Origin: Allomuricauda sp.
GTDB taxonomy: Bacteria; Bacteroidota; Bacteroidia; Flavobacteriales; Flavobacteriaceae
Length of the DNA: 64,000 bases
NCBI RefSeq assembly: GCF_028280385.1
Contig: NZ_JANQLX010000003.1
Location: 248,001-312,000, forward strand
Direction of reading: 5' to 3'
A program made the translations under genes and the position numbers. The notes below the pieces were generated by a model. The model was not told the DNA's origin. It made no database searches and saw nothing but the letters and a program-made list of their open reading frames with translations. This document shows, one piece after another, positions 4,910 to 6,604 of the stretch (its first letter is position 1; each line of letters begins with the position of its first letter).

Positions 4910-5851
4910 CTACATTAAAAATTTTGATGAAATCGAGGTGTTGTGGTGAACCCTGTGCATTACATCCGCAAAAAGGTCGGCACAACTCAATACCTTGATT
5001 TTATTCTTATTATGTTCTACCGGAATGGAATCTGTTACAATAAGTTCCGATAATCTTGATTTTTCAATTTTTTCGTAGGCATTTCCGGACAATAGTCCAT
5101 GAGTGGTAATGGCCCGTACACTTTTGGCTCCCCGCTCCATCATTAGATCGGCAGCTTTGGTCAGTGTCCCCGCTGTATCCACCATGTCATCCACAAGCAC
5201 CACATTCTTTCCCTTAACCTCCCCTATCAGCTCCATATGTGAAATTACATTGGCCTTAGCCCTTTGTTTGTAACAAATGACCACATCGCATTCCAATGCC
5301 TTGGAATACGCGTAGGCCCTTTTGGAACCTCCCATATCTGGGGAAGCAATACAAAGGTTGTCCAGATTAAGTCCCTTCAAATAAGGAAGGAACAGGGTTG
5401 AAGCAAAAAGATGGTCTACCGGCTTTTCAAAAAAGCCCTGAATTTGGTCTGCGTGGAGATCCATGGTTATAATCCTGGTGGCACCGGCGGTCTCAAGCAT
5501 TTTGGCGATCAACTTGGCTGCAATTGGAACGCGTGGTTTGTCTTTCCTGTCTTGTCTGGCCCAACCAAAATAGGGCATTACTGCAGTGATATGCCTTGCC
5601 GAAGCTCTTTTGGCCGCATCCAACATCAACAGCATTTCCATGAGGTTTTCCGAGCTTGGATTGGTGGAACCTATAATGAAAATTCTTGCCCCACGGATGG
5701 ATTCTTCAAATGAAGGTTGGAACTCACCATCACTATATCTGGAAAACTGCACCTTTCCCAAATCGGCGCCATAGGAAGCTGCGATTTTTTCCCCTAACAA
5801 CGTACTTTGGGTGCAGGCAAAAATTTTGGGTTCTGGAACTTGGTACGGCAT
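4910..5851 (-). CDS. prs: Ribose-phosphate pyrophosphokinase
   Basis: KIFACTQSTLLGEKIAASYG, RQDRKDKPRVPI, VVLVDDMVDTAGTL PRPP motif. Confidence 0.96.
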   Translation of the reverse strand: MPYQVPEPKIFACTQSTLLGEKIAASYGADLGKVQFSRYSDGEFQPSFEESIRGARIFIIGSTNPSSENLMEMLLMLDAAKRASARHITAVMPYFGWARQDRKDKPRVPIAAKLIAKMLETAGATRIITMDLHADQIQGFFEKPVDHLFASTLFLPYLKGLNLDNLCIASPDMGGSKRAYAYSKALECDVVICYKQRAKANVISHMELIGEVKGKNVVLVDDMVDTAGTLTKAADLMMERGAKSVRAITTHGLLSGNAYEKIEKSRLSELIVTDSIPVEHNKNKIKVLSCADLFADVMHRVHHNTSISSKFLM

Positions 5852-5950
5852 GGTAAACTCTTGTCGACTAGTTTATTAAAGTTCTTTTCTGCAAAAGAGG
5901 TGCAAATTTAAAAATTAATTCGGGTTGCTAAAGGAATATTCAAGGTATTT

Positions 5951-5982
5951 TTGGTGGTAAATAAAATAATTTTTTAGCTTTG
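5951..5982 (+). promoter_or_regulatory. Putative Bacteroidota promoter (TTG -33, TAGCTTTG -7) upstream of the tRNA-fragment/GIY-YIG/tRNA-Leu unit
   Basis: TTG at 5951-5953, 21-bp spacer, TAGCTTTG at 5975-5982 matches TAnnTTTG. Confidence 0.5.
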
Positions 5983-6023
5983 CAGTCCCATTTCAAAAAG
6001 GGGATACAAATTAAGCCTTGGTG

Positions 6024-6042
6024 CCTGCCTACCGCAGGCAGG
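6024..6042. repeat. Palindromic insertion 1, CCTGCCTACCGCAGGCAGG
   Basis: 7-bp perfect arms, 5-nt loop; interrupts the tRNA fragment between tRNA nt 9 and 10. Confidence 0.85.
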
Positions 6043-6056
6043 GCGGAATTGGTAGA

Positions 6057-6076
6057 CCTGTCTGCCGACAGGCAGG
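6057..6076. repeat. Palindromic insertion 2, CCTGTCTGCCGACAGGCAGG
   Basis: 8-bp stem with one T-G wobble; interrupts the tRNA fragment in the 3' strand of the D-stem (1-nt ambiguity of boundary). Confidence 0.85.
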
Positions 6077-6090
6077 CGCGCTGAAATATT

Positions 6091-6342
6091 GTGTTGAGTA
6101 TTGTGTATGCCATATCAAGTTTGGATTCGAACTACATTTATGTGGGAATGACCAAAAATCTTGAAGAGAGATTAAGAAGGCATAACAGCGGATGGGAAAA
6201 AACGACCAAGCCCTATGCTCCTTTCAAATTGATCTATCAAGAATCATGCAGAGATAGGAGAGAGGCAAGGAAAAGGGAAAAATGTTGGAAGTCGGGAGTT
6301 GGCAAAGAGCAGCTCCGCAAGCTTAGAGATAAGCTTAAATAA
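6091..6342 (+). CDS. GIY-YIG domain endonuclease-like small protein (UvrC N-terminal/YhbQ type)
   Basis: VYAISSLDSNYIYVGMTKNLEERLRRHNSG...PFKLIYQESCRDRREARKREKCWKSGVGKEQLRK; GTG start; stop codon 1 nt before the tRNA. Confidence 0.85.
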   Translation: MLSIVYAISSLDSNYIYVGMTKNLEERLRRHNSGWEKTTKPYAPFKLIYQESCRDRREARKREKCWKSGVGKEQLRKLRDKLK

Positions 6343-6343
6343 T

Positions 6344-6425
6344 GCCTTGGTGGCGGAATTGGTAGACGCGCTGGATTCAAAATCCAGTTCTTTCGGGAGT
6401 GTGGGTTCGATTCCCACCCAAGGTA
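6344..6425 (+). tRNA. tRNA-Leu (anticodon CAA)
   Basis: Acceptor GCCTTGG/CCAAGGT, anticodon stem-loop CTGGA-TTCAAAA-TCCAG, long variable arm TTCTTTCGGGAG, T-arm GTGGGTTCGATTCCCAC. Confidence 0.93.
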
Positions 6426-6431
6426 CATAAG

Positions 6432-6464
6432 AAAAAGCCGAGATTAAGAATCTCGGCCTTTTTG
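6432..6464 (+). terminator. Rho-independent terminator after tRNA-Leu
   Basis: GCCGAGATT-AAG-AATCTCGGC followed by CTTTTTGTTTT. Confidence 0.85.
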
Positions 6465-6604
6465 TTTTGGTACAACAATGGTCCCCTTTTCAGATTAGTC
6501 ATTTCAACTTGCCCCAATTGCCCTTTGTGGCATTACTGTTCATAATTAAGCCATAGGATTCTTCATTCAACACAACAATCGGGATGGAAAGAGTAAAAAT
6601 TAAA

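Follow-up and report, generated by a model that had tools for sequence, protein, structure and literature searches.

Mobile endonuclease genes that carry an end of their host gene are described from fungal mitochondria, where they occur in atp6 of Allomyces and in atp6, atp9, cox2, and nad3 of Glomus (PMC3630166; related, PMC7315562). Such an ORF enters a gene and brings a replacement for the severed end, and the native end stays behind (PMC3630166). SegB of the T-even phages, a GIY-YIG endonuclease, is encoded among tRNA genes, cuts inside them, and drives tandem tRNA-segB amplification (PMC13096335).

In the 64-kb stretch of Allomuricauda sp. DNA analyzed here (the window), a small GIY-YIG ORF lies between a tRNA gene and a fragment of that same gene. 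The initial annotation proposed a minimal mobile unit with a restored tRNA half; empty sites and recurrence in relatives support this proposal, while mobility and cleavage are inferred only. We put the probability at roughly two in three that the unit (~0.33 kb in the window, 0.3-0.4 kb in relatives) is a minimal homing-type mobile element, made of a gene for a domain-only GIY-YIG nuclease and a replacement piece of the tRNA gene that it inhabits; that the protein is active as a nuclease, that the unit moves, and what the hairpin does are all inferences.

The tRNA-Leu(CAA) locus and its empty counterparts

The sole tRNA gene of the window is a tRNA-Leu(CAA) at 6344..6426 on the plus strand, found by ARAGORN and matching the Rfam tRNA model with 61 bits, and its sequence is the same as that of the tRNA at an empty site in a relative (L046). 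Upstream on the same strand, at 6015..6083, lies a copy of its 5' half containing two GC-rich palindromes, and the claim that nt 1-30 are repeated here once the palindromes are removed held exactly, with 30/30 identity. Three pieces of this fragment match the intact gene without error, namely tRNA nt 1-9 (6015-6023), nt 10-24 (6043-6057), and nt 25-30 (6078-6083). The first palindrome, CCTGCCTACCGCAGGCAGG, follows nt 9 (6024..6042, no strand assigned) at a position that recurs in relatives, and the second, CTGTCTGCCGACAGGCAGGC, follows nt 24 (6058..6077, likewise unstranded), the commonest position in class II tRNAs. The chained fragment match scored 25.9, whereas 500 shuffles gave at most 15.7 and 419 other plus-strand pieces of the window at most 13.8; the shuffles, together with the recurrence in relatives, rule out a chance duplication of the tRNA 5' half.

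The ORF between the two copies (6091-6342, plus strand) encodes a putative nuclease of 83 aa that consists of the GIY-YIG domain only (Pfam PF01541, E=2e-17). It opens with GTG, a TTG at 6094 is a possible alternative start, and it ends 1 nt short of the tRNA gene, as had been reported, although the earlier length of 84 aa was one residue too long. Directly before the fragment, at 5985..6014 on the plus strand, is a leader that matches the leaders of empty sites in two relatives (L046 and L045), which we read as the native leader of the tRNA-Leu(CAA) gene. Just upstream of it, the TAnnTTTG-type motif TAGCTTTG is kept at occupied and empty sites alike; we take it to be a putative promoter on the basis of the Bacteroidota consensus.

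Since tRNA genes are common integration sites, and since the ORF shows a weak partial similarity to TIGR01453 (group I intron endonucleases), below the cutoff of that model, a degenerate group I intron or the remnant of an integrase-type tRNA island was considered. We find this barely credible: there is no Rfam match to a group I intron in 5850-6500, the tRNA-Leu(CAA) is complete and uninterrupted, and a ribozyme or an integrase would hardly fit into a unit of ~350 bp. The GIY-YIG ORF is the sole gene of the unit, which therefore lacks a tyrosine integrase, and no integrase was seen among the listed neighboring ORFs, which were annotated by eye.

Empty counterparts of the locus, which the initial annotation had named as a check, do exist. 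Most same-genus genomes (records named Allomuricauda, Muricauda, or Flagellimonas) carry the leader and tRNA-Leu(CAA) but neither the fragment nor the ORF. The upstream tRNA match was at shuffle level in all tested ORF-less tRNA-Leu(CAA) loci except one (27 loci); at one further ORF-less locus, the upstream sequence was too short to test. In the eight empty-site loci that were aligned, prs lies upstream (76-81% identity) and the tRNA leader matches the leader before the fragment, not the sequence before the intact gene, which places the element inside the native gene and identifies the fragment as the native 5' half and the 5' half of the intact gene as newly supplied. A second case was found at tRNA-Leu(TAA), where the 55-nt tRNA-Gly/tRNA-Leu spacer of an empty locus (L312) matches that of an occupied one (L013) up to the fragment start with one difference, and where the supplied copy also includes the last leader bases, AAGTCCT. 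Occupied and empty alleles of the same site are thus available for both genes, compared between species and not between strains.

Judged by these alignments, the element has its place within the native tRNA gene, close to the anticodon stem, with the native 5' half left beside the native leader and a second 5' half completing the gene. A replacement gene end that is supplied and a native end that is left behind are accordingly both present at two loci, where the native leader precedes the fragment. The breakpoint falls in the region of the anticodon stem, originally proposed as the target, and we infer that nt 1-30 of the intact tRNA-Leu(CAA) come from the element and the remainder is native. 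The one exceptional ORF-less locus, L056 (G029:C1:1456736-1456879), has a solo 44-nt tRNA-Leu(CAA) 5' fragment 13 nt before the intact copy, with no ORF and no hairpin; intact copy and fragment differ by paired changes in the acceptor and anticodon stems. It is possibly a scar.

Recurrence across tRNA genes and conservation of the ORF

Close homologues in relatives adjoin tRNA-Leu(CAA), Leu(TAA), Arg(ACG), and Arg(TCG). Scanning species genomes turned up 80 loci, mostly with a tRNA directly adjoining the ORF, in Bacteroidota and more rarely in Balneolota, Ignavibacteriota, and several Patescibacteria MAGs. At the Flavobacteriaceae level, 285/400 genomes had a profile match, sister genes away from tRNAs included, and the search returned 110 loci, 102 of them tRNA-adjacent and 90 with a fragment. 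When all loci were pooled with the genus relatives, a tRNA lay beside the ORF in 190/208 (one being a tmRNA) and a fragment of the same tRNA lay opposite in 168/208, for a test whose false-positive rate across different tRNAs was 34/1289. Loci were drawn from the strongest matches, and the fractions hold for this subfamily, not for all small GIY-YIG genes; no tRNA was found in the ~3-kb loci of 12 more distant GIY-YIG ORFs from relatives.

The expected homologues beside other tRNAs, each with a fragment of that tRNA opposite, were therefore found, and the family is not specific for tRNA-Leu, the gene first suggested as its target: the main targets are tRNA Leu, Arg, Ala, Met, Ser, Val, and Asp. 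A mirror-image version exists as well, with the order 5' fragment, ORF, intact tRNA in 128 loci and intact tRNA, ORF, 3' fragment in 40. Most 5' fragments stop at nt 28-38 and many of the 3' ones start at nt 24-34, so that the breakpoints of both layouts point to the anticodon arm, with those of the 3' fragments being more spread. In 53/133 5'-type loci, the reading frame continues into the tRNA, which then encodes the C-terminus (e.g., RPRGATE in tRNA-Arg). Tandem clusters of 2-8 ORFs occur at 32/208 loci with a median period of ~355 bp; neighboring units are at least 90% identical where measured, and each array displayed has one intact tRNA, at one end.

The predicted nuclease is under constraint. 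Across 202 sequences, each catalytic residue (Tyr, Tyr, Gly, Arg, His, and Glu) is conserved to at least 99%, and with the Pfam GIY-YIG match this makes a homing-type nuclease domain with intact catalytic residues. An AlphaFold2 model built on an alignment of 60 relatives reached a pLDDT of 96 and was used in place of a poor single-sequence model; among solved structures, it is closest in fold to UPF0213 and Slx1, with a weaker resemblance to the I-TevI catalytic domain. There is no DNA-binding domain beyond the GIY-YIG fold. dN/dS was 0.06-0.22 in the relative pairs that allowed estimation, indicating purifying selection. The target amino acid changes 19 times on the FastTree tree, compared to a mean of 75.8 with shuffled labels; the choice of target thus follows the nuclease. 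Seven Patescibacteria rows are scattered on this tree and need seven changes, which suggests repeated transfer, with the caveats of short sequences and MAG binning.

Apart from their inserts, the fragments are exact, and their best match is generally the tRNA of their own genome (for Leu(CAA), 2829 comparisons for and 139 against). No foreign-donor signal was seen in the supplied end: the window copies are 30/30 identical and fragments generally match their own tRNA best, although gene conversion could hide a foreign donor. This tracking of the host tRNA, the low dN/dS, and the probable co-transcription of the ORF with an essential tRNA would also fit a resident module that is vertically inherited, non-mobile, and useful to its host, perhaps through the dosage or the processing of tRNA. 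Such a module is nonetheless improbable, given the patchy presence with clean empty sites within the genus, the many different target tRNAs, and the scattered Patescibacteria rows.

No vehicle was matched at 1e-8 in the phage and plasmid collections, and the window ORF itself had no match in PHROGs and none in the phage collection at 1e-8. Two IMG/VR contigs classed as viral (L279, L299) carry such units, one at tRNA-Arg(ACG), where the fragment is short, scores weakly, and is accompanied by a hairpin, and one at tRNA-Lys in the 3' layout; these may be prophage borders rather than viral cargo. Another locus, L256 (G235:C34:5800-10900), has eight tandem GIY-YIG copies with a period of ~365 bp and no tRNA recognized within 5.1 kb. 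In the window's own genome, a GIY-YIG ORF follows the tmRNA gene (L003; C7:299952-300152), and the tmRNA trailer and ORF start are repeated beyond the ORF; a clear tmRNA fragment was looked for at this locus and not found.

Hairpin inserts in the abandoned halves

The palindromes, which the initial annotation had set aside, are a conserved part of the element. An insert of 10-60 nt, nearly always a hairpin, is present in 120/128 5'-type fragments, and 141/158 such inserts fold better than shuffles (z < -1.5). Insert sites concentrate at nt 24 in tRNAs of >80 nt and at nt 22 in other tRNAs, which we read as the structurally equivalent place in the D-arm, and they cluster again at nt 8-16; many inserts of 3'-type fragments lie in the T-arm. 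Since the hairpin sequence varies by element (CCTGCC..GGCAGG, CCCGCCCG.., TCCCGAGTACTCGGGA), it is position and shape that are conserved, not one repeat. A single repeat family landing everywhere is ruled out, as the sequences differ between elements and the positions agree. Palindromes of the CCTGCC type are few, numbering 0-17 per genome in the genus sample, and are also present elsewhere.

Hairpins also occur away from tRNA genes. Sister small GIY-YIG ORFs are preceded at 30-75 nt by a hairpin such as ATTCCTGCGAAAGCAGGAAT and sometimes followed by another (L004, L006, L027, L032, L033, L034), including two ORFs in the window's own genome (C7:283149-283343 and C6:29994-30191), where exact copies of two tested sister-ORF hairpins are confined to the surroundings of those ORFs. 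Palindromes of the type CCTGCCTGCCGGCAGGCAGG were seen in intergenic DNA without a GIY-YIG ORF (L148, L150, L158, L161, and others; G001, G005, G019), several of them adjoining TCGAGAAC-type repeats.

The main rival to homing is that the GIY-YIG protein acts on its companion palindrome to transpose, in the manner of RAYT and REP, which would make the tRNA fragment a long target duplication and not a homology arm. The frequency of inserts in 5'-type fragments, the upstream hairpins of several sister ORFs off tRNAs, and the restriction of the two own-genome hairpins to those ORFs all speak for it. We nevertheless regard it as unlikely, because hairpin sequences are highly variable at a fixed tRNA position and target, the tRNA elements have a hairpin on one side only, and CCTGCC palindromes exist without any GIY-YIG ORF. 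A broader idea, which we hold tentatively and at somewhat worse than even odds, is that small domain-only GIY-YIG proteins, together with the hairpins that accompany them, constitute a two-part mobile system of general occurrence in Bacteroidota and Patescibacteria, of which one branch has specialized on tRNA genes and can inhabit these essential genes because it rebuilds them, with the hairpin as built-in immunity or as an end signal.

In an RNA folding model that asked whether the hairpin keeps the abandoned half from pairing with the tRNA 3' half, the fragment paired with the 3' acceptor strand in most loci whether the hairpin was present or not, probably an artefact of a multiloop energy without length penalty. 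On the homing explanation, a preserved fragment with a hairpin looks as we would expect of a homology arm whose recognition site has been destroyed, although this too is inference.

A possible homing mechanism and its known relatives

If the unit is a homing-type element, its nuclease would cut an uninterrupted tRNA allele in the D-arm/anticodon-arm region, and the break would be repaired from an element-bearing copy, with the leader and 5' half on one side and the rest of the tRNA on the other serving as homology arms. Repair would copy in the hairpin, the ORF, and the replacement half, and the essential tRNA would stay functional. Since the rebuilt tRNA equals the empty-site tRNA, a nuclease that read the tRNA alone would cut its own locus, so recognition would have to use the flank too, presumably leader plus D-arm in the 5' type. 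The leader is missing from the rebuilt copy, and only the abandoned half would still offer a full site unless it were broken; the hairpin would destroy this sole remaining leader-plus-D-arm site, and the occupied allele would not be recut. Such joint recognition would account for the hairpin position, the preservation of the fragment, and the mirror layout together, with no cutting or copying having been observed.

Several lines of evidence favor homing: the two empty-site loci with the native leader before the fragment, an architecture shared over many tRNA genes in two mirror layouts with anticodon-arm breakpoints, purifying selection on an ORF with intact catalytic residues, a phylogeny that tracks the target amino acid, a match of fragments to the tRNA of their own genome such as homology arms would show, ORFs that run into the tRNA, and tandem arrays that end in one intact tRNA. 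Against it, cleavage, homing, and transposition have never been seen, the recognition of one tRNA gene is unexplained without an extra DNA-binding domain, no phage or plasmid vehicle is at hand, the closest empty-site comparison is between species only, and the match of fragment and tRNA could also arise by gene conversion in a non-mobile locus.

If self-sustaining, a unit of ~0.35 kb that lives within essential tRNA genes would rank among the smallest autonomous mobile elements, and the explanation, if true, would account for many of the small GIY-YIG genes of Flavobacteriaceae. It opens to testing the choice of a single tRNA gene by a nuclease of 83 aa, the avoidance of self-cutting when the rebuilt gene equals the target, and the origin of stray partial tRNA duplications, which may be scars left by such elements, and it bears on the annotation of tRNA genes and tRNA fragments.

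We found no description of an abandoned, hairpin-bearing half of a bacterial tRNA gene in the open-access literature searched, which did not cover bioRxiv and most subscription journals and is no proof of novelty. By sequence and fold, the nearest solved relatives are the small GIY-YIG proteins of UPF0213 (PDB 1zg2, 1ywl), which are likewise of domain-only size. REP/RAYT systems also tie a small enzyme to GC palindromes, but RAYT is an HUH tyrosine enzyme and is not known to restore a tRNA; a system defined by an HUH Y1 transposase with palindromes is not what we see, since the protein is GIY-YIG, although the association with palindromes is present. By analogy, the nearest known systems are the fungal mitochondrial mobile ORFs that carry host-gene ends, with phage SegB also near. 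The family resembles SegB in joining a GIY-YIG gene to tRNA genes, at some loci in tandem units, and in its inferred cut inside them; SegB differs in being a larger phage enzyme that is not described as lying within a tRNA gene with an abandoned half or as having a hairpin. With the fungal ORFs, the element would share entry into a gene by an endonuclease ORF with a replacement end, and some of the fungal ORFs are GIY-YIG, with an ORF that is sometimes in phase with the host gene. The fungal ORFs reside in mitochondrial protein genes and encode larger, mostly LAGLIDADG nucleases, with no hairpin described in the abandoned piece, whereas the element described here lies on a bacterial chromosome, in a tRNA gene, and encodes a predicted nuclease of 83 aa that is no more than its domain.
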